A DNA stretch of 64,000 nt, from the NCBI GenBank assembly GCA_947044365.1, contig OX345636.1:45571037-45635036 (forward strand), read 5' to 3'. Position 1 is the stretch's first letter, and every line of letters begins with the position of its first letter. The position numbers and the translations under genes are program-made. Below, piece after piece: positions 1,447-53,580 of this stretch. This stretch comes from Petrosia ficiformis (taxonomy: Eukaryota > Porifera > Demospongiae > Haplosclerida > Petrosiidae). The notes below the pieces were generated by a model, which worked only from the letters and a program-made list of their open reading frames with translations, was not told where the DNA came from and made no database searches.

Positions 1447-1540
1447 TTAAGTGTGCGATTAATTATTGTCGTTAGAGTAAAACAGACTTGTGTGCACTCG
1501 GTCACAGAAAAATTAATGGTGAGCAATATTAAAAACTATT

Positions 1541-1541
<1 letters not shown>

Positions 1542-1593
<52 letters not shown>

Positions 1594-1602
1594 TATATAT
1601 AA
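1542..1602. repeat. (TA)n microsatellite in intron 1
   Basis: A run of alternating T and A lies just after the first splice donor. The same intron carries a TA run in copies 2 (16540-16592) and 3 (31738-31812), so the microsatellite predates the duplications but differs in length between copies. Confidence 0.9.
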
Positions 1603-1934
1603 GTACTGATCTTACATGTATATTCAGACATAACAACAGCTAAACATAATTACATTAATTATCTAACCAAAACATCTCCAGACAATTCAATCAACAAGTA
1701 ATACTATGTGTTTAATATTTCATCTCGTTTCACAGGACAGAAACAGGTTTAAACTTGCAATACAGTGCACTGTAATATGCAGTTTGACTTTACTATTTAT
1801 CATCTCATTTTCGTACACATTTATTGTGTATTTTTCATCTGAAAAGAAGGAACTCGAGGTATGTTATGCATATACTGTTTTATTTTATGCCAGTTCTATT
1901 TTACAATATGACAATAAATCATGGTGTAAACAAG

Positions 1935-2400
1935 GGGGAGCTTGGGGGGCTTAACCCTTAGAGGGCTGAACTTGTTTCTCAAAATGTTTCCATTTCCAAC
2001 ACTGGTGTTTCATTGCATATATTTTTGCCACCGTTCACTTTCTTCACACCAAACTTGGCTCTTGGAGTACTACTTCCACCAACTTGCTTACTGGGACTCG
2101 AAAGTCCCCAAGCGCTTTGTAGAATTAATTCAAATACAGTGCTCTCCCTCTTTTGACTGCAACTGAGACAAACACCAGCTAAACCCACCATTTTGGGTTT
2201 CACAGCAAGGGAAATGTCTCAGCTACCCACAAGATTGTGTGGGCGGGGTCACTGAAACCCCACATTTTGTGGGTGGCAAGGGGGCTGTGTTCCCTTCCAA
2301 CCCCCATTAACAGGGGGAAAACCTTTCTTTAAAATTCCCCTCGTACTAATTTTTAGGCCAAAGGGCTGCCGAAAAAACTTCAACTTTTTTAGTCATTTTC
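1935..2400. repeat. Dispersed repeat in intron 2 of copies 1-3
   Basis: A GC-richer block including 'ggcttaacccttagaggg' and 'ggaaatgtctcagctaccca' lies in intron 2 here and recurs at about 16930-17400 (copy 2) and 32160-32490 (copy 3, shortened). Copy 4 lacks it, going almost directly from exon 2 to the 'acagttgttgctagtcatga' sequence near 46330. Short open frames inside it are not conserved in frame and look non-coding. It behaves like an old insertion, later lost in copy 4, or one that occurred before only some of the duplications. Confidence 0.5.
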
Positions 2401-2528
2401 ATGACCTAGACCCCCTACAATGTACTGGCATGCTTTGCACGCCGCAAATCTTTCAAATCCTCCACACTCTCAAAATGTTGTCTATATATAACTACATCTA
2501 GTTATGTATAGTCACAGTTGTTGCTACT

Positions 2529-2849
2529 CAGGGGCGTTTTTCAGGGGGGGCTAGGGGGTGCTCAGCCCCCCCAAAACAATTTTGAGCCCCTTTCTCGAAG
2601 ACTGCAACAACTTTTTATACAATCAGTAATGTTTAATTAAGTCTATCATCGTGTCTTGTAGATAAGAACAGCAGTGAAACCAGTACTAATTAATTGCTAA
2701 ACTTCCGAATTTCTAATTATTGCGCAGATAATTATTATTTTTGAGATAATTAATACGTATAATTAGCCACACCCCTCATGAATAATTAACAAGCCACTCA
2801 GCCCCCCCCCCCCCCCCCCCCCAATTTTCCAGTGCTTCCTACGCCACTG
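2529..2849. mobile_element. hAT-like MITE specific to copy 1
   Basis: A 321-bp insertion absent from the same intron in copies 3 and 4. Its outer ends start CAGGGGCG and, on the opposite strand, CAGTGGCGTAGGAAG. It is flanked by an 8-bp direct repeat, TTGCTACT at 2521-2528 and TTGCTAGT at 2850-2857 (one mismatch). A long C run (about 2801-2822) lies near its right end. An 8-bp duplication with CAGnGGCG ends is typical of hAT-type non-autonomous elements. It has no coding capacity. Confidence 0.65.
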
Positions 2850-3428
2850 TTGCTAGTCATGATCAGGTGTTTATTTGCAATTATATGTGCAGCATACTAT
2901 AGTTTACCATTAACTGATAATTTTGATTAAATTAATATCGACAATTTGTATCATTTTATAATAATAATTACTAAATGTATAATCATAATCATGATTATAC
3001 ATTATATTACATATAAAGTTATCATACTTAATTTTGAGGTCATTCTGAATTAATGTTCAATTGAAGAATTGTGTGGGTCTATTTTTCATAACTATCCTTC
3101 ATTTTTAAGGATGAGATACATATTGATGAGATTTGTCGTCCTTACTCTTATGGTGATCAATATGAAAATAATTCTAATCTTACATTCTTTGGAACTTTAT
3201 TACAGAATACATCAGGTATCTTGTGTCATTTCTCATTTACTATGTACAGGAATAGCCCTGATTAGATAGATGATTTTGGTTGGTTACAATCCTTTCCGAC
3301 TTTCAGTGTAAATTAATTTTTCTCAATGCTGTTTAGTGATTTCTGTTAGGTCATATTGTATATCTAGTAACAAAACAGCAAAACAGTGTATATAGCATTG
3401 TATTTTATATATAATAAGTACTATGTAC

Positions 3429-3560
3429 TAGTGTTGTTTTAGTTTGACATTAATGACCACTTTTAGTTATAGTTATAGTATGAGTAGTTTCTCAAAGAAT
3501 CACAATACCTTACCTAAGGGGTTTTAGTTATGGTTATAATAGTTAACTAAAACAACACTA
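3429..3560. mobile_element. 132-bp hAT-type MITE with perfect TSD
   Basis: Terminal inverted repeats TAGTGTTGTTTTAGTT / AACTAAAACAACACTA bound the element. The flanking 8-bp direct repeat CTATGTAC (3421-3428 and 3561-3568) is perfect. The same insertion sits at the same place in copies 2 and 4, and as a truncated right end near 33222-33250 in copy 3, so it was present before the receptor duplications. An 8-bp target duplication and TAGnG-type ends point to hAT. Confidence 0.8.
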
Positions 3561-5271
3561 CTATGTACACATGTACATATTTGTACTTATAATAACAAAT
3601 AATATCCTTTGTATCTAAATTACTGTGAGATTCTTTATTATGGCATGTACTTTAATTTATATACTAGTCAATATAAGAGCATATTATTAATATTGTATTG
3701 AAACTCATGTAACCAAACAAGGCTTAAAATAAACCACTAATGTTTATAGTTTGTACATTAAATTAATATATTATTACATAATAATCTACAACTGCTGTTT
3801 CTAAAACACTGGACACTTCTGAATTTCCATATTTGGTGTGTATACTCTCCTCCAAAGTGGCAAAAGAGTGGACTTACTAATATCTTCTCTACTATACTGG
3901 AAGCTATCACAAACCCAGGCAGAAATCTGTTTCAAGTTTGCATTGTTGTCCATCACTGCTGGAGACAGATGTATAATACTGCATATAACCTGTGGATTCC
4001 ACACAACTTGGTAAGTGTTGTGTACAACAGTGCATCAAGGCCACAGAACTCGGTAAGTGTATGTATATAGTCATCAATGTTGAATCGAGTCGGTAGCAAA
4101 CAAGGCGAGGCATCTACAAACTTATTTTGGCAACTACACTGAAGGGTCACGCACATATTCAAGTGCTCTATATTTATTACTATGTTTGAATTGTCATGTC
4201 AAGAAATCCCTTATACGGGTAATATTTACAAGTCATACACAGTTCATAGTATAGTATTGCATAGGTACAATCTGTGGTGTATTATTAGTATCCCAATTCC
4301 AACATCTTCAAAAACAACAAATGTTACTATATAGCTCATTCTAGAGTAATTAAATATGTATATGAATTTGTACTTATAATAGCAATAGCGTGTGATGTAC
4401 TCCACAAATATTTGAAAAGTCAGCACATGTGTCTAATTTTACATGTTTGGTACATTTTATTGCTTTTGGATGTTAAGTAACACAATGTAGCTATATATGT
4501 AGTATAATATTGTATAGGTACAACATGTGGTGTATTATTAATATTCCAATTCCAACATCTTCAAAAACAACAGATGTTACTAGAGTAATTAATTAATATA
4601 AATAATGTACATGAATTTGTACTTATAATAGCAAATAACAATGTGATGTACTCCACAAATATTTGAAACATCACCACATTGTATTGCTTTTGTTATCATG
4701 CCATAATTTGTCAATATAGAACAAAATGAAATTATTACTTGTACACATCACCTAGCTAGACAAGAAAGAAGCATTGACTTTTACAGTCTCAGGAGGAATT
4801 GAAACTCATGTAACCAAATGAGGGTTAAAATAACCAATTGATTTTTACAGTGTATATGTCTCTCCATATAAGTGTTGTTAATTATTAGCCTCCTATTTTG
4901 ATCCTTACCTTAAATATGTAACATTTGATACATACATAAAAATAATTATAATATTATATAAAATTGAAATAAATAGTACAGTGGCATAGCCAAGGGGGGC
5001 ATGTCAGGGACATAAGTGATAATTAATGCAAACTGTCATGAATCAGAATAGATAAAAGATTCAGTTTTCACAAATTATGCTCACACTTCTATATATAATT
5101 TAGAAGAGACAATGACTGGCTTGTGTGTGAAGATTGTTAACATCTATATAAATATCTACTACCTATAGCATATATTGTTTGCATCCTTTTAGTATAATAT
5201 ACATGTCTGTTCATGATTTTATTAAATCACTATGACCAAAATAATTTTTTACCAGTATTTGCGTAAAGTAG

Positions 5272-5373
5272 GCTGTTGTGTTTCATGCATGAGAAAGTTG
5301 GCCATGATTACTGTATACTGGACACCCGAATGCAATCATAGGGATACTTTTTTCTCAATATATCTTGTTTCAA
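5272..5373. repeat. Left arm of inverted repeat bracketing exons 4-6
   Basis: This stretch, including 'gccatgattactgtatactg' and ending near 'tatatcttgttt', matches the reverse complement of about 6165-6285 on the other side of exons 4-6. By eye the match runs about 100 bases with scattered mismatches. The same left arm is present in copies 3 (34568-34665) and 4 (about 47893-47992) but is deleted in copy 2. Confidence 0.6.
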
Positions 5374-6164
5374 TTTAAACCAGAACTAGTTGTTTTAATC
5401 TTTATAATGTCCTCCCTTGTTCATGATTTTAATACCTTTATTCATTATGTAGTTGATGAGATATATACTGATCATCCTATGTGTTTAGATGCACTATTAC
5501 CAGTATTTTGTTCAATATTATACTCTGATAATACTGACATGGTAAGTGTATATAATATATATACTAAATCTCTACATATAGTTGTGTACATACTAATATT
5601 TTAAAAGTATGATTGTTTCATAAAAAACAACTAAGAATTAAGCAGTGTTAAAAGCCAATTCAAAATTAAGATGATCATATAATTATACATAATAATACTT
5701 TAGTCAGGAGGGTGGAATGGATACAGCAGTTCACTAAATGAGTGCAATTCAGTTTTACCTAATGAACAAATACTCTACTTGTCATCTCTTCCATCAGGTA
5801 TATTCATTTTCTGCTAATATATCCAATGTATCTACATGCATTTATATGCACTTCTATATGTAATACTATTCGAAGGCTTTCCCTTTGTCACAGTATATTT
5901 TGAAGACATAACATGTGCTGATGGGTTTTATCTACTGAACTATACATGTCGACCACACTGCACTCAGTTTGAAAGTGTATATCATAGTACTGCTACAATC
6001 GAGATTGGTTTACAATACTTTGCTACCATTTCTAATGCAATTATCACTTCACTTTTTATTGTTGTGGTCTGCTTCAATAGAAAGACAATGTTAGTTCTGA
6101 AATGATGATTATTAAGTACACCTTTCCAACTCTTTGTGTTTTTTGTTTCAGAATAGTATGTTTG

Positions 6165-6590
6165 TATTTAAAAAACAAGATATATGAGAAAAAAATATCC
6201 CTACGATTGTTTTATAGTGTCCAGCATTCAGTAATCATGGCTGACTTTATCATGCCTGAAATACAACACCCTGTTATAGTTATTATTTTGATTATCAACT
6301 CTCTTTACCTTTTAAGGGATCTTGTAGAACTTTAAGAATATATTTCAGGTTGAATAGTTAGCTAGTAGTTCCAGTTTCTATGTAAGCTACAAGCAGCTTT
6401 CTTTCTACTGGTCTGAAGAGTTATTACGTGCCATGCCCATTAATTGATCGAGCCTCCCGGGAATGACACAGCTACCTTAACTATGTATACAACACATACT
6501 CGTGCAAGTGGACACAAGAATAAATATATTTATATAGTTCGAACCTGTGGAAAAGCAATCATAGGGATGGCCTTATGGGCCATAATAATT
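6165..6590. repeat. Right arm and dispersed repeat in intron 6
   Basis: The first 120 bases are the inverted partner of 5272-5373. The rest runs on to a short palindromic end, 'ggatggccttatgggccata', at about 6565-6584. The same segment is at 35456-35880 in copy 3. In copy 4 it is in the opposite orientation and moved downstream of exon 8 (49430-49790). The open frames seen here in copies 1 and 3 are similar only because the DNA is; they are not needed for the receptor frame and I treat the block as an intronic repeat. Confidence 0.55.
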
Positions 6591-9182
6591 GTTTTTTTTT
6601 ACATTTTCATATGAACTGCTATATTAGTCCTATATATGCTAATTTCATATCACATCTGGGAGTAAAATGCACTTACAATATAATAGAACTGATGTTACTC
6701 TACATAGATATATTACTGATGTTACTCTACATAGATATATTACAAGCATGTATTCTGAATTGATATATGATGAATACAGTTGAATTCAGATTGTACAATT
6801 TTTTGCAGGTTGAAATTTCCATCTGTTCTATTTGTGTACATAGTTGTTTTGTTATCAGTATTGCGTAAGTTAACATCTGTCAAGGTTTTATGTATGATTT
6901 GTATATGTATGTTGGGAGGGGTGAAGAAGAATATTTAATGTCATGTCACACTTAAGCAGTGTAGTACCAAAGGTGAATTGCTAAATAATATGAATTGACA
7001 AAGCCATTTCTGCTTCAGAATGTATTGCACAATCATTTCACATAAGAATGCACCATGTAAGGGAGGTGTGGGATATCACCCCCTGGAAATGTTATATAGC
7101 TATAGGGCTTAGTCCTTCTGAGATTGATTCTGATACATTCTGAGATAATCACCATACTTTAATAATCTTCACTGTTATTTTAATTGATAACAATCTTGGA
7201 AGCACCCCTCTAGGAGAGGTGTAACATGTGATCTTTCTTTCTCATATAGCTCTAACTATTCTAATTAACTTACTAAGTGGGAGAACTTTATTGTGTTCTG
7301 ATGATGACCTTATAAAGAGTTTTCAACGACCCAGTGCTTACTGTGTAATATCAGGTCTACATGCATACATGTTCGCATGAACACACTAAATCATACTTGC
7401 ATGAGTATATTTACACACGACAAAATTTCCATAAACTCACATATTCTCAAGCTACTCTAGCACACTATGTGTGGTTTAATTGTTCATAATTATTCATCAC
7501 ACTTAAGTTAGCACATTGACAGTGTGCACAGTATGCGTTGTAACGTAATTAATACATAATTATAATTGTTGATCTAAGAGTGTAGATAAAGGTTAAAATA
7601 ATCCATTCATTTTTAGAGTATATGGTTAGTAAGTAGGTCTCTATCACTTTTCAGCCTAAGTTTTGGGTGTTTCTAGTTTCATAGTAACTCTCAGCTTTGT
7701 ATGCCTATGAAATGCAACTAGAAACATCTTCAATAGCAGATCTGATAAAAGAGATAAAGATCTGCCTACAATACTTCCAATATTGCATACGTTTTTGTTA
7801 TAATTCAATTATTATTATATATTTGTATATTATATATAATTATATTAATTATATATATACATTATAATAATTATATAATGTAGGGCTGGGATGATTAATC
7901 AATTAATCAATCAATATTGAAAATTCCTATGATTATCGGTTATAGGTCTGTGATATAAATTATGCTAAATATTCCAGAATACATGCATGCAACAGCAAAT
8001 AGTGTAAGTGACAGGAAGTCTTTTGATCATCAAATTAATTGGCCTAATTACTTCTACTGATTTTAATCGATTATAGATTTCAGAATCTCAACTGATTCCC
8101 AGCCCTATTATATATATATATAATATAATTATAATAGTAATTATAATTAAATTTTACATAGCAATTATTATTATTATATATTACTTAAGCTTATATATAG
8201 TAGCGTAGTGCTGCATTCCTTGCTCTTCCTTTGTATACAGGTATACTGCGGATTATATATCTTAGTATATCATTTTTATGGATCATATTTGTGGCTGTCA
8301 TGTTTTGGAAGTTAGTATTTCCAAGTAACTCACATCGGTATCATTATTTGGACAAATGGATTCATGCTTTAACTCCTTTAATCAGTGAGCACAATTATTA
8401 TAAAAATTCCATTTATATATATTTGGTGGCAATAGTATTCTATTTGATATGATACAGTAGATACTAAATATAGAATTCAGTACGTTTCTTTTTTAAATCT
8501 GAAGGAATTATATTCCAAGCATTCATCTGATATCAAAGCTATCAATCATAATTCTGTTTTCATTATAGTTATCATTCTCGTAATACCGTATATTTTGATT
8601 ATAACCACTAACGGAGACTTCTTTCCCATTCAAAATGACTTTCCATCGCTCGGTTGTGGATCACGAAACGGTTTCTTTAACTTCAGCTACATAATCCTTC
8701 CTGCAATATTTCTCTGCAGTCTTGGTATGTTCCTTTTGCTGATTATACTCTTTCGTCTACAAATGGTAAGTAATTGTAACTGTACAAATTATAAAGTGTA
8801 GTAAATTTCAATGAATTGTGTAGCTCTGTTGAAATGTATATTGTAGCTCTGTTGAAATGTATTGGGTTGTGTGGCTACCTTTAATGGAGTACACAGCACC
8901 ATTATAATCCACACACAAACTAAACTTCAAGCAGTTCTTAAAAACTACATGTTATGTGAATTATCGGGATACAGCATGAACAGTGAGAATGATATTACTA
9001 CATGTAGTAAAGATGAATTAGAGACATACAGTTATGTTGGCTTGTCTATTACATCCAGCATATTCACTTTTATATTCCTACCATTGCTGCTTCTACTTGT
9101 AATGATTGAGTGGCAACGTTTCATACTATGGATGAAAGTGTCGTTTCAAATGAAAAAAAAAAAAACAGCTGTAATGAAATAA

Positions 9183-16511: not shown

Positions 16512-16543
16512 ATGGTGAGCAACATTAAAAACTATTGGCATAC

Positions 16544-16593: not shown

Positions 16594-18900
16594 TATATTC
16601 CTCTAGAGCAGCCAAGTACTGATCTTATATTCAGGCATAACAACTGCTAAACATAATTATAATAATTATCTAACCAAAGCATCTCCAGGCAATTCAATCA
16701 ACAAACAATACTATGTGTTTAATATTTCATCTTGTTTCACAGGACAAAAACAGGTTTAAACTTGCATTACAGTGCACTGTAATATGCAGTTTGACTTTAC
16801 TATTTATCATCTCATTTTCGTACACATTTATTGTGTATTTCTCATCTGAAAAAAAGGAACTTGAGGTATGTTATGCATGTGTAGTGTTATTTTATGCCAG
16901 TTCTGTAATGTGACGATAAATCATGGGTGTGGATAAGGGGAGCTTGGGGGCTTTAACCCTTAGAGGTCTGAACTTGTTTCTCAAAATGTTTTCCATTTCC
17001 AACACTGGTGTTTCTGTTGCATATATTTTGGCCACCGTTCACTTTCTTCACACCAAACTTGGCTCCTATTCCGACATGGAGTACTACTTCTACCAACTTG
17101 CTTATTAGGACTTGAAAGTCCCCAAGCGCTTCATAGGATTAATTCAAATACAGTGCTCTCCCCCTTTTGACTGCAACTGGGACAAAAAAAAACGACCCTG
17201 CTGCATGTTGGCACTTGCTGCACCCACGATTTTGGGTTTTACAGCAAAGGAACTGTCTCAGCTACCCACAAGATTGCGTGGGCAGGGTCACTGAAACCCC
17301 AAGTTGGGTGGGCGGAGAGGGGGGCTGTGCCCCCTTCAAATCCCCATTAATGGGAGGACACCCCCTTTTAAAATTCCTCTCGTACTAGTTATTTAGGCCA
17401 AAGGGCGCCAATAAGGCATAAATACAATGTAGCTATATACATAGCTTAGTATTGTAGGTACAACCTGTAGTGTATTATATATATTTAATAAATAATGCAT
17501 ATGCATAATTATTCCTTATCGAATATCAAGACCAAAAAACATCAACATTATTAGTCATTTCCACGGGCTTATGTCTGACAACAATTACAAACATTTCGAG
17601 TGCTTTGTAATAGGTAATAAGAACACACTCTGAACTGCGTAGGGGTCAAATGTCACATATATGTGACATCAGTGATCTAAGGGTTAAGCCCCACCCTCAT
17701 AAGTTTTTGGCAACCATTAAAAAATATTATAGAAAAATGGTGTTGGATAAAGTATACTGTATTAAAAATATCCAAACAGTTTTTTCTACTATCATTATGG
17801 GACGCTTTGCACGCTGCAAATCTTTTATAGCCCTCCCACTCTGAAAACGTTGTCTATGCCCGTGTACATAACTACATCTACTTATGTATAGTCACAGTTG
17901 TTACTAGTCTTGAAAAAGTTGTCTATGCCCGTGTGTAATTACTAAAGGTCATTCACAAATGACTCAGAAAGAAGTTAGTTTTCAATAATAAACAGCCTTT
18001 TTACCATCTTCATGCAATTGTCCTCCCCCTTAGCTACACTGCAAAAACAGATATAATAGTTAAAATAACTATTTGATTGGTTAATTAGTACAGTTGCAAG
18101 GATTCAAGAATTAGTTGGTTGTTCAGATTATTATATATACATGCATGCTAATGCCGTAACTACTTTGCACTAATATTATTGTAACCAATTAATTGAAGCA
18201 GTATAATGTTAGGTTGCTGTCTACTCATATTTCAACCAACAACCACTTCAAACGATTGTATCTGGCAGTACTGGCCAACAAAAGGGTTTGGAAACCTGCA
18301 AACACATAATTTAATTTATTTTAGTGTATATACATGTTATTATACTTGGTGCACACAATGTCATAGTAACATCATGTATGTAGCCACAACAACCTGTATG
18401 ACAAACTAGATTGCAACGGTTATTTTAACTGTTTAATTTTTGCAGTGTATATTTAGTAAAAGTGATGTCAAATTTCAATCCACTGCTTCATTATTGAGTT
18501 ACAGTATAATCATTATAATATACATATAAAGTTATCATACCTAATTTTGAGATCATTCTGATTTAGTGTGAACAGACTTTAAAGAAGAATTGTGTGAGTC
18601 TATTTTTCATAACCTTCACTTCATTCTTAAGGATGAGATACGTATTGATGAGATTTGTCGTCCTTACTCTTATGGTGATCAATATGAAAATAATTCTAAT
18701 CTCTCATTCTTTGGAACTTTATCACAGAATATATCAGGTATCTTGTGTCATTTCTCATTTACTATGTACAGGAATAGTCCTGATTAGATGGATGATTTTG
18801 GTTGGTTACAAGAATTTCAGACTTTCAGTGTAAATTCTCAATGCTGATTGTGTTTCCTGCTAGGCTGTATTTAAAAGTACCAGTTTCATTTCATCTTGAT

Positions 18901-31707: not shown

Positions 31708-31748
31708 ATGGTGAGCAACATTAAAAACTATTGGTATATGTATATAAT

Positions 31749-34700: not shown

Positions 34701-37391
34701 TATAATGTTGATGATTTTAATACCTTTATTCACTATGTAGTTGATGAGATATATACTGATCATCCTATGTGTTTAGATGCACTATTACCAGTATTTTGTT
34801 CAATATTATATTCTGATAATACTGACATGGTAAGTGTATATAATATATATACTAAATCTCTACATATAGTTGTGTACATGATAATATTTTAAAAGTATGA
34901 TTGTTTCATAAAAAAAACAACTAAGAATTAAGCAGTGTTAAAAGCCAATTCAAAATTAAGATGATCATATAATATATACATAATAATACTTTAGTCAGGA
35001 GGGTGGAATGGATACAGCAGTTCACTAAATGAGTGCAATTCAGTTTTACCTAATGAACAAATACTCTACCTGTCATCTCTTCCAACAGGTATATTCATTT
35101 TCTGCTAATATATCAAATGTATTTACATGCATTTATATGCACTTCTATATGTAATACTATTTGAAGGCTTTCCCTTTGTCACAGTATATATTGAAGACAT
35201 AACATGTGCTGATGGGTTTTATCTACTGAACTATACATGTCGACCACACTGCACTCAGTTTGAAAGTGTATATCATAGTACTGCTACAATCGAGATTGGT
35301 TTTCAATACTTTGCTACCATTTCTAATGCAATTATCACTTCACTTTTTATTGTTGTGGTCTGCTTCAATAGAAAGACAATGTTAGTTCTGAAATGATAAT
35401 TATTAAATACACCTTTCCAATTCTTTGTGTTTTTTGTTTCAGAATAGTATGTTTGTATTTAAAAAACAAGATATATGAGAAAAAAATATCCCTACCATTG
35501 TTTTATAGTGTCCAGCACTTAGTAATCATGGCTGACTTTATCATGCCTGAAATACAACACCCTATTATAGTTATTATTTTGATTATCAACTCTCTTTACC
35601 TTTTAAAGGATCTTGTAGAACTTTAAGAATATATTTCAGGTTGAATAGTTAGCTAGTAGTTCCAGTTTCTATGTAAGCTAAAAGCAGCTTTCTTTTTGCT
35701 GGTCTGAAGAGTTATTACGTGCCATGCCCATTAATTGATCGAGCCTCCCGGGAATGACACAGCTACCTTAACTATGTATACAACGCATACTCGCACAAGT
35801 GAACACAAGAATAAATATATATATATAGTTCGAACCTGTGGGAAAGCAATCATAGGGATGGCCTTATGGGCCATAATAATTGAATTTTTACATTTTCATA
35901 TGAACTGCTATATTAGTCCTATATATGCTAATTTCATATCACATCTTTGAGTAAAATGCACTTACAATATAATAGAACTGATGTTACTCTACATAGATAT
36001 ATTACAAGCATGTATTCTGAAATCATATGATGAATACAGTTGAATTCAGATTGTACAATTTTTTGCAGGTTGAAATTTCCATCTGTTCTATTTGTGTACA
36101 TTGTTGTTTTGTTATCAGTATTGCGTAAGTTAACATCTGTATAACACTGTGAAGGTTTTATGTATGATTTGTATATGTATGTTGGGAGGGTTTAAGAAGG
36201 ATGTTTAATGTCATGTCACACTTAAGTGGTGTAATACCAAAGGTGAATTGCAAAATAATATGAATTGACAAAGCCATTTCTGCTTCAGAATGTACTACAC
36301 AATCATTTCACATAAGAATGCACCATGTAAGGGAGGTGTGGGATATCACCCCCTGAAAATGTTATATATAGGGCTTAGTCCTTCTGAGATTGATTCTGAT
36401 ACATTCTGAGATAATCACCATACTTTAATAATCTTCACTGTTATTTTAATTGATAACAATCTTGGAAGCACCCCTCTAGGAGAGGTGTAACATGTGATCT
36501 TTCTTTCTCATATAGCTCTAACTATTCTAATTAACTTACTAAGTGGGAGAACTTTATTGTGTTCTGATGATGACCTTATAAAGAGTTTTCAACGACCCAG
36601 TGCTTACTGTGTAATATCAGGTCTACATGCATACATGTTCGCATGAACACACTAAATCATACTTGCATGAGTATATTTACACACGACAAAATTTACATAA
36701 ACTCACATATTCTCAAGCTACTCTAGCACACTATGTGTGGTTTAATTGTTCATAATTATTCATCACACTTAAGTTAGCACATTGACAGTGTGCACAGTAT
36801 GTGTTGTAACGTAATTAATACATAATTATAATTGTTGACCTAAGTGTGTAGATAAAGGTTAAAATAATCCATTCATTTTTAGAGTGTATGGTTAGTAGGT
36901 CTCTATCACTTTTTGGCCTAGGTTTTGTGTGTTTCTAGTTTCATAGTAACTCTCAGCTTTGTATGCCCATGAAATGCAACTAAAAACATCTTCAATGGCA
37001 GATCTGATAAATGAGATAAAGATCTGCCTACAATACTTCCAATATTGCATACATTTTTGTTATAATTAATTTATTAAATATTTATATATTATATATAATT
37101 ATACTAATTAAAATGTAATTATGCATATACATTATAATAATTATATAATTTAGGGCTGGGATGATTAATCAATGGATTAATCAATTAATCAATCAATATT
37201 GAAAATTCCTATGATTATCAGTTATATGTCTGTGATATAGATTATGCTAATTATTCTTCTTTTCAAACTAAGTGACAGGAAGCCTTTTTGATCATCAAAT
37301 GGGAGGAGTTCCTAGTTAATTGGCCTAATTACTTCAGCTGGTTTTAATTCAATTAGATTTCAGACTCTCAGCATTCCCAGCCTATTATATA

Positions 37392-37462: not shown

Positions 37463-38704
37463 ATTATTATAATAGTAATTATAACAATTATTATTATTAT
37501 ATATTAGTTAAGCTTATATTTGAATAGTGCTGCATTCAATGCATCCTTTGTGTACAGGTATACTACAGATTATATATCTTATTATATCATGTTTATGGAT
37601 CATATTTGTGGCTGTCATGTTTTGGAAGTTAGTATTTCCAAGTAACTCACATTGGTATCGTTATTTGGACAAATGGATTCATGCTTTAACTCCTTTAATC
37701 AGTGAGCACAATTTAAATATCCCTACATACTCTTTCATTTTTTACAATGTTTTTTATTATTCTATATATTTGTTGGGAGTAGATTCTATTCTATTTAACA
37801 TGATAGATACTTAGTATAGAATTCAGTATATTTTTTTATCTGGATGAATTATATTCCAACCATTCATCTAATTTGACAAAGCTTTCAATCATAATTCTGT
37901 TTTCATTATAGTTATCATCTTTGTAATACCATATATTTTGATTATAACCACTAATGAAGACTTCTTTCCCATTCAAAATGACTTTCCATCACTCTGTTGT
38001 GGATCACGAAATGGTGTATTTTATTTCAGCTACATAGCCCTTCCTTCAATATTTCTCTGCAGTCTTGGTATGTTCCTTTTGCTGATTATACTCTTTTGTC
38101 TACAAATGGTAAGTAATTGTAACTGCACAAATTATAAAGTACAAATATACATTTATTTGTACTTTGTAAGTTTATGTATGAATCGATCTAATTGTGTAGC
38201 TCTAGATCTGTTGAAATATATATTTTTAATTTACTTTTTGCATTTGCTATGTAGAGGTATGGCTGCTCTATATGGAGAAAAGATACTGTTATAAATACAG
38301 CAGAAAAGAAGATACTTTTACTTTTAATTTCAGTGGGTTGTGTGGTTACATTTAATGGAGTGTTTTACACCATTATAAACTACACACATAGTAAATTTCA
38401 AGCAGTGCTTAAAAACTACATGTTATGTGAATTATCGGGATACAGTGGGAATGATATTATTGCATGTAGTAAAGATGAATTAGAGACAAACAATTATGTT
38501 GGCTTGTCTATTACAACCAGCATATTCACTTTTATATTCCTACCATTTCTAATTCTACTTGTGATGATTGAGTGGCGACGTTTTATACAATGGATGAAAG
38601 TGTCGTTTCGAATGAAAAAAAACAACAGCCTCCAGTTTGTCAAAGCTAAACACTGTAATGAAATGAGACTGGCCAAATTACCAGAACAGAACAATTCAGA
38701 GTAG
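31708..38704 (+). CDS. Frizzled-like (class F) seven-pass receptor, copy 3, intact frame
   Basis: Exons: 31708-31710, 31966-32091, 32830-33001, 34678-34829 (acceptor could be six bases earlier), 34995-35088, 35167-35380, 36069-36124, 36516-36620, 37558-37701, 37912-38108, 38255-38704. They join in consistent phases into 570 codons. Residues 2-43 hold a hydrophobic signal/anchor. Residues 44-183 form a reduced cysteine-rich domain with five cysteines, including MCLDALLPVFCSILY, which compares with the C-x-LRFFLCSLYAP core of frizzled domains. ITC...YTCRPHC matches the frizzled linker C...CGAPC. The seven membrane segments follow: TM1 in exon 6, TM2 in exons 7-8, TM3 in exon 9, TM4-TM5 in exons 9-10 and TM6-TM7 in exon 11. 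The exon-9/10 join W-x2-AL...NEDFF...CCGSRNG fits the frizzled TM4-TM5 loop. After TM7, RRFIQW stands where frizzleds have KTxxxW. The class is well supported; ligand and signalling are unknown. An alternative start, ATG at 31936, reads straight into exon 2. Confidence 0.8.
31738..31812. repeat. (TA)n microsatellite in intron 1 of copy 3
   Basis: TA-rich run with 'ataatta' interruptions, at the same site as in copies 1 and 2. Confidence 0.85.
33874..34335. mobile_element. Possible MITE with ACTGTAAAA ends in intron 3
   Basis: The left end, 'acactgtaaaaaataatagg' then 'ttattttaacc', is mirrored by 'ggttaaaataacc...ttttacagtgt' at 34303-34335. The internal sequence is shared with copy 1, where the left end is lost. 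Related single ends occur elsewhere (4824-4856, 18048-18080, 21793-21825). It has no coding capacity. Confidence 0.45.
37386..37458. repeat. (TA)n microsatellite in intron 8 of copy 3
   Basis: Long uninterrupted TA run upstream of exon 9. The corresponding introns of the other copies have only short TA stretches. Confidence 0.9.
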
Positions 38705-40409: not shown

Positions 40410-41400
40410 CAAGATAACAGGTACATTAGTATTGCAACAGGTATATTAGCTGTGTAACAGGTGCATTAGTGTGATAACAATAAAGGTAACAGGTACATTA
40501 GTAGTGTAACAGGTATATTAGTATTATAACAGGTACTAATTTACCTCTTAACTGGTATATTATATTAGTAATGTACAGGTATTGTAATACATAGTAATAA
40601 GTTAAATTGTAGTGTGATGGGTACATTAGTAAGGTAACTTGTACATTAGGAGTGTAACAGGTACATTAGTAGCATAACAGGTTCATTTGATTAGTAAGGT
40701 AACTGGTACATTAGAAGTGTAACAGGTACATTAGAGGATAACAGGTACATTAGTATTGTAACAGGTATATTAACAGTGTAGCAGGTGCATTAGTATGATA
40801 ACAGGTACATTAGTAAAGGTAACAGGTACATTAGTAGTGTAACAGGTGTATTAGTATTTTAACAGGTGCTAATTTACCTCTCTTAAAAGGTATATTAGTA
40901 ATGTACAGGTATAGTAATACATAGTAATAAGTTAAATTGTAGTGTGATGGGTACATTAATAAGGTAACTTGTACATTAGGAGTGTCACAGGTACATTAGT
41001 AGCGTAACATAACAGGTACATTCTGAAAGTAACAGGTACATTTCTATTGTAACAGGACATTAGTAATGTAACAGGCACATCAGTAAGATAACATCTACAA
41101 CAGGTACATTAGAGGATAACAGGTACATTAGTAGTGTAACAGGTATGTAACAGGTATATTAGCTGTGTTGCAGGTGCATTAGTACGATAACAGGTATATC
41201 AGAAGTGTAACAGGTACATTAGTAGTGTAACAGGTACATTAGTAAGGTAACAGGTACATCAGTAAGACAACATCTACAATAGTAGGGTAACATACATTAG
41301 TAAAAGTAACAGGTACGTTAGTAGTGTAACAGGTATATTGGTATTGTAAGTACAATAGCAGGATAACATTAATAAGGTGAGTGGTACCTTAAAAGAGTGT
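40410..41400 (+). repeat. Minisatellite, unit about 20 bp (GTAACAGGTACATTAGTA)
   Basis: Dozens of imperfect copies of GTAACAGGTACATTAGTAGT lie in direct orientation. A higher-order repeat of about 320 bp is visible: the block around 'aagttaaattgtagtgtgat' occurs at about 40600 and again at about 40930, each with the same variant units. It has no open frame of interest. The repeat units touch each other without unique spacers, so this is not a CRISPR array. Confidence 0.9.
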
Positions 41401-41640
41401 AACAGGTACATTCTGAAGATCACACTGTTGCACTGCTAATATACCTGTTACACTTCTAATGTACTAGTTACCTTACTAATTACCTGTCACACTCCAATTT
41501 CATGTATTACTATGTATTACTATACTTATGTACCTGTTCCTGTTACTTTACTAATGTACCTCTTACACTAATGTACCTGTTATCCTCTAATGTACCCGTC
41601 ACACTTCTAATGTACCTGTCACCTTACTAGGAAACAAAAC
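41401..41640 (-). repeat. Same minisatellite in inverted orientation
   Basis: Units read as ACTAATGTACCTGTTACAC, the reverse complement of the preceding array, beginning abruptly near 41405. Together the two parts could fold into a long imperfect hairpin. Confidence 0.85.
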
Positions 41641-43218: not shown

Positions 43219-43313
43219 GGTTATACACCGAGGTAAAGGTTTCTACTGAGGTAAAGGTTTCCTTCGGCCCTCGGTTTGATAAATCAGTAGAAACCGTACC
43301 GAGGTGTATAACC
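43219..43313. repeat. Hairpin within the transposon
   Basis: 'ggttatacaccgaggta' and 'taccgaggtgtataacc' face each other about 95 bases apart, with inner matches 'ggtttctactga' / 'tcagtagaaacc'. It looks like a small nested foldback element. Confidence 0.75.
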
Positions 43314-45320: not shown

Positions 45321-45429
45321 CTCAGTAGGTTTCAGTGTAATTTAGCAACCTCATTTACTGCAATCTGATTGGTCAGTTTACTATAGGCATGGTAGAAATA
45401 TATATATTATATATATATATATATATATA

Positions 45430-45460
<31 letters not shown>

Positions 45461-47083
45461 AGGATCTATATTTTATATATATATATATATATATATTATG
45501 TATATGTAATATACACACAGATAATATGATATAACCTTCCGCTACCGCAGAGTAATGCGCACATTCTGGTCCGTGGTCCCATCCGTATTTTAACGCAATG
45601 CGTATTGTATTGCATGGTCCGTGTTTCTGGTCTATGGTCCGTGGTCCGGTCCGTGTTTTAGTCAATCCCACCTTTTACGTCATTATGCGATAGTTCTTTA
45701 TATAGACAGGGCTCTGTCTAGCCAAAATCAGATGCAAGTACTAGTTGAGCTATATAACTCACCAGTGTTAAATCGGTCTAAACAGCACTTGATTGTCGTT
45801 AAAGAACTATAGGAGTAAAACGGGATTTGTCAGTGGTTGATATACACCATAGATAAAAATTAATGGTGAGCAATACTATAACAATAACTAAAAGTGGTCA
45901 TTATTGTTAAAATAAAACAACACTAGTACATAGTACTTATTATACATAAAATACAAGGCTGTATACACATATAAACACTATTGGTACATATATATTATAT
46001 ATATATATTTCTTTAGAGCAGCCAAGTACTGATCTTATATTCAGACATAATACTGCTAAACATAATTACCAAAGTATCTCCAGACAATTCAATCAACAAA
46101 CAATACTATGTGTTTAACGTTTCATCTTGTTTCACAGGACAAAAACAGGTTTAAACTTGCATTACAGTGCACTGTAATATGCAGTTTGACTTTACTATTT
46201 ATCATCTCATTTTCGTACACATTTGTTGCGTATTTCTCATCTGAAAAGAAGGAACTTGAGGTATGTTATGCATGTAGAGTGTTATTTTATGCCAGTTCTA
46301 TTTTATAATGTGACTATACATAACAACATACAGTTGTTGCTAGTCATGATTAGGAGTTTATTTGCAGTTATATGTGCAGCATACTATAGTTTTACCATTA
46401 ACTGATTAAAATCATATCTTGAAAATAGACAATTTGTATCATTTTGTGGTCATTCACAAATGACTAAGTTAGTTTTGAATAATAAACATACTTTTTACCA
46501 TCTTCATACAATTATCCTCCCCATTATTTTTGGTAAAAGTTATGTCAAGTTTCAATTCACTGCTTCATTATTGAGTTACAGTATAATCATAATTATACAT
46601 TATATAATTACAAGTTATCATACCTAGTTTTGAGGTCATTCTGAATTAATGTGAACAGACTTCAATTGAGTTTAAAGAAGAATTGTGTGGGTCTATTTTT
46701 CATAACTATCACTTCATTCTTAAGGATGAGATATATATTGATGAGATTTGTCTTCCTTACTCTAATGGTGATCAATATGAAAATAATTCTAATCTTTCAT
46801 TCTTTGGAATTCTATTACAGAATATATCAGTATCTTGTGTCATTTCTCATTTACTATATACGGGAATAGCCCATTTGGATAGATGATTTTGGTTGGTTAC
46901 AAAACTTTCCAACTTTCAGTGTAAATTAATTATTCTCAATGCTGTTTAGTGTTTTCTGTTAGGTCATATTTACAAGTACTAGTTTCATTTCATCTTGATC
47001 TATATTGACTAGTATATCTAGTAACAAAAACAGCAAAACAGTATATATACCATTGTATTTTATGTATAATAATTACTATGTAC

Positions 47084-47207
47084 TAGTGTTGTTTTAGTTT
47101 GACATTAATGACCACTTTTAGTTATAGTTATAGTATGAGTAGTTTCTCAAAGAATCACAATACCTTACCAAAAGGGGTTTTAGTTATAGTTAACTAAAAC
47201 AACACTA
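47084..47207. mobile_element. Copy-4 instance of the hAT-type MITE
   Basis: Same ends as 3429-3560, with the perfect 8-bp duplication CTATGTAC at 47076-47083 and 47208-47215. A partial inverted copy of the left part is also seen in intron 1 of this gene copy (about 45885-45935). Confidence 0.8.
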
Positions 47208-48587
47208 CTATGTACACATGTACATATTTGTACATATAATAACAAATAATATCCTTTGTATCTAAATTACTATGAGATTCTTTATTATGGCATGCTTTAA
47301 TTTATATCATAGCCAATATAGGAGCGTATTATTAATATTGTATTGAAACTCATGTAACCAAACAAGGCTTAAAATAAACCATTAATGTTTACGGTATGTA
47401 CATTAAATTAATATATTATTACATAATAATCTACAACTGCTGTTTCTAGAACACTGGACACTTCTCAATTTCCATATTTGGTGTGTATGTACTCTCCTCC
47501 AAAGTGGCAAAAGAGTGGACTTACTAATATCTTCTCTCCTTAACTTAAATACATTTGATATATACACATAAAAATAATTATATATAAAATTGAAAAAAAT
47601 AGTACAGTTGCGTAGCCAAGGGGGCATGTTGGGGGCATAAGTAATAATTAACGCAAACTGTCATGAATCAGGATAGATAAAAGATTCAGTTTTCACAAAT
47701 GATGCTTACATTTCTATATATAATGTATAATAGACAACGACTTGGCTTGGGTATGAAAATTTTTAACATCTACATATCTACTACTTATAGCATATATTGT
47801 TTGCATCCTTTTAGTATAATGTACATGTCTGTTCATTATTTTATTAAATCACTAACCAAAATGGTTTTTTCTACCAGTATTTGTTTAAATCAGGCTGTTG
47901 TGTTTCATGCATGAGAAAGTTGGCCATGATTACTGAATGCTGGACACCAGAATGCAGTCATAGAGATAATTTTTTCTCAATATATCTTGTTTCAATTTAA
48001 ACCAAAACTAGTTGTTTTAATCTCTATAATGTCCTCCCTTGTTCATAATTTTAATATCTTTATTCATTATGTAGTTGACGAGATATATACTAATCATCCT
48101 ATGTGTTTAGCTGCACTATTACCAGTATTTTGTGCAATATTGTATTCTGATGATACTGACATGGTAAGTGTATATAATATATATACTAAATCTCTACAAT
48201 CATGTATATAGTTGTATACATACTAATATTTTAAGTATGAATATTTCGTAACAAACAACTAAGAATTCATCTGTCATATAATTATAATTATATTATAATG
48301 TTATAATTATTATATATACATTATAATACAATATAACAATAATATTTTAGTCAGGAGGGTGGAATGGATACAGCAGTTCACTAGATGAGTGTAATTCAGT
48401 TTTACCTAATGAACAAATACTCTACCTGTCATCTCTTCCAACAGGTATATTCATTTTCTGCTAATATATCAAATGTATCTATATGCATTTATATGCACTT
48501 CTATATGTAATACTATTTGAAGGCTTTCCTTTTGTCACAGTATATTTGGAAGACATAACATGCGCTGATGGGTTTTATCTACTAAAC

Positions 48588-48915
48588 CCTATATATAATA
48601 TTTCCAGGGGTGATATCTTACACCTATCTTACACGGTGCAATCTTATGCGAAACCAGTGGTGTAACTGAGTGTTTAGTGATGGCAGGGCCAAGAAATTGA
48701 TAGTTGCAGGGGGTCTTGGAGCACAGCCCCCCAGAAGCCGAGGGTTGTTCAGAGTTAAAAAGACCAAATCGAGGGGAAATTTTGGCTTGTGGCTGTATTT
48801 TTGTTATATATATTACACTGCTGGAAAGAGTGCTCAAAAGCGGTGTACAAACACTGATCATGAATTGAGATGACAGAATAAGTGTGGGTATTAAAAAACT
48901 TGTAAAGATAAAAAC
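48588..48915. other. Foreign segment replacing exon 6 end to exon 7 in copy 4
   Basis: Begins where homology to the other receptor copies stops inside exon 6 and ends where it resumes ('gggtttagtccttatgagat', compare 7105). It contains 'gtcttggagcacagcccccc' and 'gaggggaaattttggc', in the style of the GC-rich short insertions elsewhere in the window. No coding frame is supported. Confidence 0.55.
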
Positions 48916-49429
48916 AAAAATTGTGGGTTTAGGGTTTAGTCCTTATGAGATTGATTATGATACATTCTGAGATAAACACCATATCTTCACTGCTTTTATA
49001 ATTTCATTCAGCCATGAATATATTCACTTAGTTGATAACAATCTAGGAAGCACCCCTCTAGGAGAGGTATAACATGTAATCTTTCTTTCTCATATAGCTC
49101 TAACTATTCTAATTAACTTACTAAGTGGGAGAACTTTATTGTGTTCTGATGATGACCTTATAGAGAGTTTTCAACAGCCCAGTGCTTACTGTGTAATATC
49201 AGGTCTACATGCATACATGTTCACACAACAAAATTTGCATAAACTCACATACTCTCAATATGACTAGGCTACTCTACCACACTATGTGTGTGTTTAATTA
49301 TTCATCACGCTTAAGTTTGTTAAAGTAGCACATTGACAGTGTGCACAGTATGTGTTGTGACCCATAATTGATCTAAGTGTGTAAATTAATAAAGATGTAT
49401 GATGTGCTATATAAAACTGGAAAAAAATA

Positions 49430-49790
49430 TTTTTATGGCCCGTAGGGCCATCCAAAGGATTGCTTTCCCACGTGTTCGATGTATGTTTATATAATTTATC
49501 TTGTGTCCACTTCGCGAGTATGCGTTGTAGTATGTGCTTAGCGCGTAATAGAACGTGCGCTCGAACTCAGCAGACTTACATAGAATTAGAAACTGGAACT
49601 ATACTAGCTAACTATTCTACCTGAAATATATTTCTAAAATTCTACAAACTTCTTTAAAAGGTAAACAGAGTAGATAATCAAAATAATAACTATAATAGGC
49701 TGATGTGTTTCAGACATTCATAAAGTTAGCTGGACACCACAAAGCACTAATAGCAATACTTTTTTCTCTATATATCTTGTTTTTCCTATA
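49430..49790 (-). repeat. Inverted copy of the intron-6 repeat, displaced in copy 4
   Basis: From 'tatggcccgtagggccatcc' onward this is the reverse complement of about 6165-6590 of copy 1. It includes the repeat's 'ctggacac' and 'tatatcttgttt' end. It lies downstream of exon 8, whereas in copies 1 and 3 the repeat precedes exon 7. Confidence 0.65.
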
Positions 49791-51755
49791 CTGTAATATT
49801 TACAAATCATGCACAGTTCATTTGATCTTGATCTATATATTGACTAATATATATATGTCATAATAAGGCATATGGTAACAAACGTATTAATACAATGTAG
49901 CTATATATTTAAAGATACAACATGTGGTGTATTATTTGTATTAAATGTAGCATCTGTGAAAACAAAAGATGTTACAAGCTCATTCGATTAATTAGTATGT
50001 ACATGAATTTGTACACATGGACTACAATTAACAAGTGATGTACTCCACAGATATTTGAAAAATTAGCATGTCTATAATGAGATTTATAATTATGTTTGAA
50101 GTATGTGTACATTGTATTATATTTGTTACCATTCTTTATTATGGCATGTACTTTGTACACTAGTCAATATAGATCAAAATCAAAAGAAAGAAATTACTAC
50201 TTGTGTAAGCATTACCTAGCTAGACAAAAAAAGCAGCATTGATTTGTTAAGTCTCAGAGGAATTGAAACTCATGTAACAAAAGAAGGGTTAAAACAGTCC
50301 ATTCATGTATGGTTAGTAGGAGGTCTCTATCACTTTTTGGCCTAGGTTTTGGGTGTTTCTAGTTTCATAGTGACTCTCAGCATTGTAGAAATGCAACTAG
50401 AAACATCTTCAATTGCAGATCTGATAAAGGAGATAAAGATATGCCTACAATACTTCAAATATTGCATACATTTTTGTTATATTTAGCTATATTATTATTT
50501 ATTTATATATTATAAAAAATAATATAATTATAGTAATTAAAATTAATTATATAATTTAGGGCTGGGATGATTAATCAATTGATTAATCAATTAATCAATC
50601 AATATTGAAAATTCCTATGATTATCAATTATAGGTCTGTGATATAAATTATGCTAAATATTCCAAAATATGTACTTTTCAGGCACGCAACATATATAATA
50701 GTAATTATAATTTATATAACAATTATTATAATTATATATTACTTAAGCTTATAGTAGCATAGTGCTGCTTTCAATGCATCCTTTGTGTACAGGTATACTA
50801 CAGATTATATATCCTAGTATATCATTTTTATGGATCATATTTGTGGCTGTCACGTTTTGGAAGTTAGTATTTCCAAGTAACTCACTTCGGTATCGCTATT
50901 TGGACAAAGGGATTCATGCTTTAACACCTTTAATCAGTGAGCACAATTATTATACAAATTCCATTTATATATAATTGGTGGCAATAGTAGATTATATTCT
51001 AATTGACATGATAGACACTAAATACAGAATTCAGTACGTTTTTTTTAAAATCTGGATGAATTATAATCCTTGCATTCATCTAATTTCAAAGCTATCAATC
51101 ATAATTCTGTTTGTTTTATAGTTATCATCTTCGTATTACCGTATATTTTGATTATAACCACTAATGGAGACTTCTTTCCCATTCAAAATGACTTTCCATC
51201 ACTCGGTTGTGTATCAAGAAATGGTTTCTTTAACTTCAGCTACATAATCTTTCCTGCATTATTTCTCTGCAGTCTTGGTATGTTCCTTTTGATGATTATA
51301 CTCTTTCGTCTACAAATGGTAAATAATTGTAACTGCACAAATTATTAAGTACAAATTAGTATTGTATAGCTCTGTTTAAATGTATATTTTAATATGCTTT
51401 TTGCATTTGCTATGTAGAGGTATGGCTGCTCTATATGGAGAAAAGATACTGTTATAAATACAGCAGAAAAGAAGATACTTTTGCTTTTATTTACAGTGGG
51501 TTGTGTGGCTACAATTAATGGAGTAAACAACACGATTAGACTCCACACAAAAACTAAACATCAAACAGTTTTTAAGCACTACATGTTATGTGAATTATCG
51601 GGATACAGTATAAACAGTAGGAGTGATGATACTACATGTAGTAAAGATGAATTAGAGACATACAATTATGTTGGCTTGTCTGTTACATCCAGCATATTCA
51701 CTTTTATATTCCTACCATTGCTATTTCTACTTGTGATGATTGAGTGGCGACGTTT

Positions 51756-51760
51756 CATAC
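51756..51760. repeat. Left target-site duplication CATAC
   Basis: CATAC occurs immediately before the 5' LTR and again at 53532-53536 after the 3' LTR. Copies 2 and 3 have a single CATAC at this place in the exon, which confirms the 5-bp duplication. Confidence 0.9.
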
Positions 51761-51984
51761 TGTAATGAACTGAGACATTTAGACTCAATATTGTTAATAA
51801 TAAAATAATTAACTATTGTATATGTTGTAGTTGTATTATATCTATTGTTGTACATTTTTGTAAGGGCTACTGCCCTCACTATATAAATGAAATCTGATTC
51901 TTGTAATGTGCAGTTTTTTGATAGAAAAGCTCATGGTTATTGTGCTATATATCAAATTGTAAAACTCTAGTTGTAAACACAACA
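51761..51984 (+). repeat. 5' LTR
   Basis: 224 bp, TG...CA ends, with a TATATAAA-like box in 'cactatataaatg' near its middle. Confidence 0.92.
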
Positions 51985-52017
51985 TTTGGCGACGAGGATT
52001 CTGAGCTACAGCATATC

Positions 52018-52386
52018 ATGGCCCTAATCGGAAACATTGGGGAATATATAGAGTCAAGGGAGAGCTGGTCCCAATATATTGAAAGGTTGGAACAGTTTTT
52101 TGTTGCCAATAATATTGCCGAGGGGAAGAAAGTGTCTGTTCTTCTATCAACAATTGGAGCTGTAGCTTATCGTACTATTGGAAACTTAGTGGCTCCCGGA
52201 AAGCCCGCTGATATAAGTTACTCACGTCTGGTTGAATTAATGACAGAATACTATAATCCAAAGCCATTGGTTACTGTGCAACGTTTCCGTTTTTATAGTC
52301 GTTTCCGTCAGCCAGAGGAGTCCATATCTACATTTGTTGCGGAATTGAGGAACCTAGCAAAAGACTGCGATTTCGGTTCATTATGA
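52018..52386 (+). pseudogene. gag: gag fragment
   Basis: A 122-codon frame beginning MALIGNIGEYIES and containing WSQYIERLEQFF and VQRFRFYSRFRQPEESI...LRNLAKDCDFG, typical of Ty3/Gypsy capsid-region proteins. The frame then ends because an internal deletion joins it out of frame to a polyprotein piece. The remaining capsid and zinc-knuckle parts are absent. Confidence 0.8.
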
Positions 52387-53312
52387 TTCGCAGAAAGCTC
52401 TTGTTCTAGCTTGTGATGCATCTGCCTATGGAGTGGGAGTTGTGCTGTCTCACAGATTGTCTGATGGATCTGAACGTCCAATTGGATTTGCATCCCGGGT
52501 ACTATCTCCGGCCGAACGAACAGTTTTGAACAGTTTTTAACTCAAAATGGCATTAGACATTTACTATCGTCCCCCTATCATCCCTCATCTAATGGCCTGG
52601 CAGAGAGAGAGGAGTTCGGATTTTCAAAGAGGGAATGTCCAAATGCACTGAAGGTACACTGCTAGACAGAATTTCTCATGTGTTGTTTTATAATCACATC
52701 ACACCACAAACCACCACTGGTCTGTCACCTGCAGAGCTCCTTCAGAATCGCCGACTACAAAGTCGTTTGGACTTATTAAAACCAGATCTTCAAGCTCGTA
52801 TTGAAAAACAACAATACAAACAACAATATTACTCAAACATCGGTTCTCGATACCGAGAGTTCCAGTCCGGAGAGCCTGTATATGTGCAGAACTTCGGCAA
52901 AGGCTCCAAATGGATTGCAGGAAAAATTGATGTTCCCTATGGAAATGTGTCATATGATGTCACACTAGATGACGGGAGAACATTCAGGCGTCATGTGGAT
53001 CATATCCGAAAAAGGCTCGATACTACCCCTATTGTCAATTTTCAGGACAACCCCGAGATAATCCACACCACTGAAACACCTAAGGCTCCAGCACTGTCAG
53101 TACAACCATCGGTCACCAGATCTGAAACAGAGGAGCCTCCAGCACCATTAGTACAACCGTTGGACACTCAATCGCCATCCCTCACGGAATCTGAAACCAC
53201 CAACACATCAGAAACGAAACCACCATCACCTATGGATAATCGATATCCTTCACGACATCGTAAGCCCCCTGATCGTTATATACCTCTAAATTTCAGGAGG
53301 GGGAAAATGTAA
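52371..53312 (+). pseudogene. pol: pol remnants (RNase H piece and integrase end)
   Basis: From about 52380 a frame reads LVLACDASAYGVGVVLSH and GFASRVLSPAER, the start of a Ty3/Gypsy RNase H domain, and stops near 52540. It is followed by NGIRHLLSSPYHPSSNGLAE, from the end of the integrase core, then a two-base insertion in a GA run shifts the frame. A long frame, 52635-53312, carries the integrase C-terminal part (GLSPAELLQNRRLQSRLDLL). Catalytic regions are missing or broken. Confidence 0.8.
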
Positions 53313-53531
53313 TGAACTGAGACATTTAGACTCAATATTGTTAATAATAAAATAATTAACTATTGTATATGTTGTAGTTGTATTATATCTATTGTTGTAC
53401 ATTTTTGTAAGGGCTACTGCCCTCACTATATAAATGAAATCTGATTCTTGTAATGTGCAGTTTTTTGATAGAAAAGCTCATGGTTATTGTGCTATATATC
53501 AAATTGTAAAACTCTAGTTGTAAACACAACA
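53308..53531 (+). repeat. 3' LTR
   Basis: 224 bp, apparently identical to the 5' LTR, followed by the right target duplication CATAC. Confidence 0.92.
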
Positions 53532-53580
53532 CATACGATGGATGAAAGTGTCATTTCAAATGAAAAAACAACAGCTATAA

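Follow-up and report, generated by a model that had tools for sequence, protein, structure and literature searches.

A tandemly expanded receptor family of class F ancestry in the sponge Petrosia ficiformis, with Smoothened as its nearest solved relative by sequence

Introduction

Class F receptors usually form a small, conserved developmental set with few copies per animal. What, then, are the four similar receptor-like genes that follow one another in a 64,000-nucleotide stretch of the genome of the sponge Petrosia ficiformis (contig OX345636.1, here C1, positions 45571037-45635036), and do they stand alone? A first-pass annotation, made from the letters of this stretch (the window), described them as a tandem array of divergent Frizzled-like receptor genes. 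The claim was followed up in the home genome, searched as 191 megabases (Mb) on 29 contigs, of which those other than C1 carry our own labels, such as C2, C5 and C18.

Judged by sequence, the window genes are very probably class F (Smoothened/Frizzled-type) receptors, and a tandemly expanded, fast-turning receptor family of class F ancestry is well supported. By profile comparison, Smoothened is the nearest solved relative of this family. The assignment of the window genes is a two-step chain that runs through relatives on C2 and C18, because the window and C5 members on their own match nothing of class F.

Gene structure across the family

Comparison of the window with itself by blastn gives four direct repeats, with alignments starting near 1448, 16443, 31635 and 45961. 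With a minisatellite and fibronectin type III repeats excluded, alignments longer than 500 bases are 78-93% identical, many at E = 0, a similarity far above chance expectation. Exon borders were set by splice signals (GT/AG), exon pattern and conserved frames, and the resulting predicted models give an 11-exon plan common to the four copies (Table 1). Copies 2 and 3 are complete: their 11 exons agree in phase throughout and join into open frames. Copy 1 is open over exons 1-10, and its exon 11 lacks an acceptor and about 25 codons at the 5' end. Copy 4 has lost one G from the exon-3 donor, its exon 6 is cut off, and its exon 7 was not found by the exon-pattern search. The four tandem copies claimed for 1516..53580, their common exon order and phases, and their different stages of decay are thus all borne out; the span runs from the ATG in exon 1 of copy 1 to the last base of the final exon of copy 4.

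The same plan can be followed into relatives on other contigs. Counterparts of window exons 6-11 in modelled C5, C2 and C18 genes have phases 1-2, 2-1, 1-1, 1-1, 1-0 and 0-stop. Because these phases were imposed as a search condition, what the models show is that, under them, well-aligned exons with splice sites and open joins can be found; tblastn, run with no phase condition, gave the exon matches in collinear order. Open joins over exons 6-11 were obtained for twelve genes (C2 a, b, d, e, f, g and h; C18 B, D and E; C5 a and b). C2 and C18 models begin at exon 3, and within the stretches searched no Fz exon was found for C18D and no good exon 3 for C2d, C2g and C2h. The alignment of the family holds 14 members, with C18A, C18C, C2c and C5c left out as broken or poor models.

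Profile comparison ties the two groups together: hhalign of a window and C5 profile against a C2 and C18 profile gave a probability of 100 and E = 2.9e-41 over 401 columns. The cysteine linker, C...F...N.TC.P.C, is invariant in all eight aligned members and aligns with that of Smoothened. By alignment, the window proteins also keep the C-x8-C core of the cysteine-rich domain. In a tree of 16 proteins the C2 array falls together, as do the C1 and C5 arrays, the latter two on a long branch.

Class F ancestry through relatives

The Fz domain was found at E ≤ 1 in four of the six members of the tested set (best 6.4e-9) and in none of the window and C5 members. Against the cut-off of 32.1 bits for the Fz model, the modelled protein of C18B lies above (36.8) and those of C18E (31.3) and C2f (25.7) below. 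A six-frame search of the genome with this model returned 40 places at E ≤ 1, with two C18 members above the cut-off and places on C2 and C4 below it. Five successive Fz matches at C1:38610316-38612919, each in a 1065-amino-acid (aa) open frame, apparently belong to one multi-Fz protein.

A profile of the family that included the cysteine-rich domain was compared with the whole PDB and matched Smoothened at E = 8.5e-13 over the cysteine-rich domain, the linker and the transmembrane segments (TM) 1 to 6. Of its 26 matches, 23 were Fz-domain proteins (Smoothened 17, MuSK 3, ROR2 2, Frizzled-3 1), with the single Frizzled-3 match being a 124-residue chain at E = 0.77. Smoothened was still the best match (E = 5e-11) when the window and C5 members were removed from the profile. 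A third profile, of the linker and seven-transmembrane (7TM) part without the cysteine-rich domain, also had Smoothened as best of 177,635 PDB sequences (E = 5.1e-5), in register from the linker to TM4; at E ≤ 10 this profile matched one further molecule, an integrin fragment (0.011).

The first-pass annotation had held that a better match to another class of G-protein-coupled receptor (GPCR) would speak against it. No chain of a class A, B or C receptor appeared at E ≤ 10 in the three PDB profile searches that gave Smoothened, and no Pfam GPCR model matched at E ≤ 1 in the window proteins or the members scanned. Its reading of the genes as class F, seven hydrophobic segments and a reduced cysteine-rich domain included, is supported, but only by way of the C2 and C18 relatives. 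Its choice of Frizzled as the nearest type did not hold, the nearest solved relative being Smoothened (5e-11 to 8.5e-13). "Frizzled" was likewise considered as a family name and set aside, since Smoothened is nearer among solved proteins.

A number of results weigh against the assignment. The check that the first-pass annotation had proposed, spliced copy 3 against the Pfam Fz and Frizzled models, gave no match at E ≤ 1, and the whole of Pfam gave no family at that threshold for spliced copies 2 and 3. Parts of these copies searched against Pfam at E ≤ 10 gave no GPCR or Fz family. Copy 3 had no phmmer match in the PDB at E ≤ 10, and the window and C5 profile had no class F match there, its sole entry at E ≤ 10 being cytochrome c oxidase (0.08). 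Copy 3 and residues 228-380 of copy 2 found nothing at E ≤ 1 and E ≤ 10 in a protein-database search that relies on shared exact words and by our estimate excludes only relatives of about half identity or more. Scans of the genome_contigs and viral_contigs collections gave no match. A Frizzled alignment was also used; it drew on 117 of 120 relatives listed for one query, mostly vertebrate FZD1/2/7-like, and is a narrow profile. With it, HMMER did not place copies 2 and 3 among the 15 matches listed, which were shuffled sequences and one reversed copy, and hhalign gave 0.6% for the window proteins and a probability of 1-3% for the wider family. Finally, the Pfam Frizzled model, PF01534, had no match in the family members scanned or at any array place in the genome, and the KTxxxW motif is absent from all nine array proteins checked.

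The same genome also holds canonical class F genes. PF01534 matches at five places (C16:3.219 Mb, C11:0.328 Mb, C16:3.619 Mb and two at C18:0.33 Mb). The genes at C16:3.219 Mb and C11:0.328 Mb score 341 and 324 bits, and the former, one uninterrupted frame of 613 aa, encodes an Fz domain and the motif KTIVAW. This small number, with none in the arrays, fits the earlier remark that class F is normally kept at low copy. Because PF01534 is blind to the arrays, a GPCR count based on Pfam would miss the family.

Family size and turnover

The array extends beyond the window, with three further copies at C1:45526445-45534794 (U1), 45649429-45655125 (D1) and 45658590-45667511 (D2). U1 and D1 are open over exons 2-11, while exons 7 and 8 of D2 were not recognised, the picks made for both being spurious. 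Of the seven copies in the C1 array, four have open frames (copies 2 and 3 in full, U1 and D1 from exon 2 onward); the other three are broken or incomplete.

The exon-11 protein of copy 3, used as a query, gave 65 match rows in the home genome, in the C1 array, in a big C5 array (5.58-6.10 Mb), in C1 fragments elsewhere and, weakly, on C2 and C18. With a C2 member as query there were 64 rows, now including C4, C1:34.875 Mb and further places on C2 and C18; with a C18 member there were 58, on the contigs that the C2 query had matched. Merging all 65 exon-11 rows with 27 of the 64 C2-query rows (those on C5 and at C1:45 Mb being already covered by the exon-11 query, and the C18-query rows being left out) gave 75 terminal-exon places: 33 on C5, 11 on C2, 9 in the window array, 1 at C1:34.875 Mb, 8 in other C1 fragments, 6 on C18 and 7 on C4. 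At 55 of these the terminal exon is a single uninterrupted, stop-free row of at least 290 base pairs (bp), distributed as 30 on C5, 8 on C2, 6 each on C1 and C18, and 5 on C4; two places built from two short merged rows each, probably frameshifted, fall outside the 55. Place counts are lower bounds and still include possible assembly duplicates. The four-copy array is thus real, but the idea that it is the whole family was set aside on the strength of the 65 exon-11 rows and the 55 uninterrupted exons.

Equal or near-equal scores were seen for pairs of family members at C5 5.579-5.613 and 5.646-5.679 Mb, offset by about 67 kilobases (kb), and for pairs of family fragments at C1 0.59-0.61 and 1.67-1.69 Mb, offset by about 1.08 Mb. 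These pairs may be segmental duplications or unmerged haplotypes.

Substitution patterns differ along the gene. Between copies 2 and 3, exon 11 has 39 nonsynonymous and 10 synonymous changes (ratio 1.03) and exons 3-5 have 9 and 2 (ratio 1.19), with exon 6 at 0.21. A picture of rapid diversification is not helped by the rest: taken across every exon compared, copies 2 and 3 have a ratio of 0.68, the two pairs that involve copy 1 have 0.36 and 0.40, and in a C5 pair the nonsynonymous rate lies below the synonymous rate in every exon group. With overall ratios below 1 and the C5 pair as it is, diversifying selection is unsupported. The data fit a protein under constraint along most of its length; in one pair the region around TM6 to TM7 would have changed faster or under relaxed constraint.

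Alternative explanations

Class F by family profile, with the C-x8-C core and the linker cysteines at the expected places, the copies might be taken for ordinary but diverged Frizzled paralogues, that is, Wnt receptors. However, the genome has separate canonical class F genes, typified by the frame with KTIVAW and the high PF01534 scores, whereas the array members have 11 exons and lack both KTxxxW and a PF01534 match; among solved proteins Smoothened is nearest, and Frizzled enters only as the short Frizzled-3 chain. This makes such paralogues very unlikely. It is also improbable that the genes are of a different 7TM class (e.g., cAMP-receptor-like or adhesion-like), with the Fz domain of the C2 and C18 members gained by fusion. 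The window and C5 branch does lack a direct class F match, and PF01534 is silent throughout, but the linker and 7TM profile, which contains no cysteine-rich domain, still leads to Smoothened and to no other GPCR at E ≤ 10.

A third explanation is relics and assembly duplicates: three of the seven C1-array copies are broken, and the equal-score rows on C5 and fragments on C1 could be unmerged haplotypes. That most copies are of this kind, with no working repertoire, is nonetheless unlikely in view of the uninterrupted terminal exons at 55 of the 75 merged places and the twelve C2, C18 and C5 genes that join into open frames over exons 6-11.

A candidate sensing repertoire

Taken as a whole, the observations are probably best explained by a large, tandemly expanded family of class F-derived receptors at the cell surface. 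The four window genes very probably descend from a class F receptor that had an Fz-type cysteine-rich domain, followed by a cysteine linker and the seven helices of the 7TM part. This is indicated by the shared exon structure, the homology to C2 and C18 members, the Fz domains of those members and the place of Smoothened as the nearest relative among solved proteins. In the window and C5 branch, the cysteine-rich domain is reduced and the 7TM core is too diverged for direct recognition; the family turns over by tandem duplication and decay. Each copy is predicted to sit at the cell surface and to start with a hydrophobic segment, either signal peptide or anchor. Its diverged extracellular part may sense an extracellular ligand other than canonical Wnt and pass the signal on through the 7TM core.

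The repertoire as a whole may serve environmental, microbial or self/non-self sensing. We put forward this sensory or immune role tentatively, from copy number, turnover, the reduced cysteine-rich domain and the missing KTxxxW. It is likewise a possibility, though a doubtful one at present, that an animal class F receptor was here turned from Wnt/Hedgehog signalling into a large, rapidly diversifying repertoire for chemical, microbial or self/non-self sensing, with the cysteine-rich domain partly lost and with no trace in Pfam-based surveys. With a large tandem family of class F architecture that has no Pfam Frizzled match, class F diversity in early-branching animals is perhaps undercounted, and the arrays offer a candidate receptor repertoire in a lineage about whose sensory and immune receptors little is known.

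Gene models and other features

Coordinates are collected in Table 1. The long terminal repeat (LTR) element inside copy 4 is a recent arrival, because its LTRs are identical and a target duplication is present; its internal part is short, with weak gag-like Pfam matches alone. The sequence between copies 3 and 4 includes, at 40411-41629, a degenerate tract that resembles a minisatellite and contains both direct and inverted repeats. Downstream of the array, at 60118-62749, open frames carry fibronectin type III domains (best E = 6.2e-18) and internal repeat units about 87% alike. Elsewhere in the genome, C15 has a cluster of cathepsin-L-like, silicatein-like matches at 0.19 and 1.49-1.51 Mb. 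Both exons inspected there have the YAF signature, and in one of the two the catalytic cysteine is replaced by serine (CGCSYAF), as in silicateins; this points to a demosponge without proving it.

Table 1. Predicted gene copies and selected features of the window (positions counted from its first letter)
Feature	Span	Strand	Description
Copy 1, pseudogene	1516..9182	+	Exons 1516-1518, 1736-1858, 3110-3215, 5453-5541, 5704-5797, 5894-6089, 6809-6864, 7250-7354, 8241-8384, 8569-8765; exon-11 remnant in stop-to-stop frame 8856-9182
Copy 2, intact, 499 aa	16512..23931	+	Exons 16512-16514, 16743-16865, 18632-18737, 19695-19783, 19958-20051, 20150-20345, 20844-20899, 21315-21419, 22974-23117, 23241-23437, 23545-23931
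Copy 3, intact, 521 aa	31708..38704	+	Exons 31708-31710, 31966-32091, 32896-33001, 34741-34829, 34995-35088, 35185-35380, 36069-36124, 36516-36620, 37558-37701, 37912-38108, 38255-38704
Copy 3 exons 4-5	34741..35088	+	Remnant Fz cysteine-rich domain (C-x8-C core, CLDALLPVFC), aligned with the Fz exon of C2/C18 members
Copy 3 exon 6	35185..35380	+	Linker C-x10-C-x3-C and first transmembrane segment, phase 1 to 2
Copy 3 exon 11	38255..38704	+	TM6, extracellular loop 3, TM7; used as query to find the other family members
Copy 4, pseudogene	45863..53580	+	Exons 45863-45865, 46138-46260, 46725-46830, 48075-48163, 48351-48444, exon 6 similarity ending at 48587, 49098-49202, 50793-50936, 51122-51318, exon 11 from 51418, broken after 51760
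LTR element inside copy 4 exon 11	51761..53531	+	Two identical 224-bp LTRs (51761-51984, 53308-53531), 5-bp target duplication CATAC

Comparison with known systems

Like Smoothened, the best PDB match of the family profile, the family combines an Fz-type cysteine-rich domain, a cysteine linker and a 7TM part in one chain. It differs in its many tandem copies, its multi-exon genes and the reduced cysteine-rich domain of the window branch, and the likeness is one of sequence similarity, visible by profile only. The canonical Frizzled genes of the same genome (C16:3.219 Mb and C11:0.328 Mb) share with it an Fz domain and a 7TM part; unlike them, the arrays have neither a PF01534 match nor, in the nine proteins checked, KTxxxW, and the C16:3.219 Mb gene is a single open frame.

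Frizzled is present in sponges and, according to the available excerpts of one survey, was not detected in the 23 choanoflagellates examined (PMC12716839). For Amphimedon queenslandica, the excerpts of a receptor survey that chose its receptors by Pfam families describe 3 full-length Frizzled-family members kept from 9 Frizzled-like models, with long-branched class F genes, one of them placed basal to Smoothened (PMC4302439). These too are sponge class F genes, but the same excerpts describe no expansion of comparable size, and selection by Pfam misses the present family. The excerpts of PMC7385117 and PMC10280926 mention no such expansion either, and no large sponge class F expansion was found in a literature search over titles and the beginnings of abstracts, with most subscription journals outside its scope.

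A likeness in kind, at the level of published descriptions, is with the Fsl and Fsc receptors of dictyostelids, although these belong to amoebae and not to animals. In the available excerpts of PMC10445921, the social-amoeba Fsl receptors are amplified and have repeatedly lost the cysteine-rich domain, and KTxxxW, named there as a defining motif, occurs among D. discoideum Fsl receptors only in FslJ and FslK. Features that these descriptions share with the sponge family are lineage-specific amplification, recurrent loss of the cysteine-rich domain, weak Pfam scores and the absence of KTxxxW from many members (PMC10445921). The Frizzled/Smoothened-like receptors of social amoebae, which expanded independently, may offer a parallel to the sponge arrays that can be tested.

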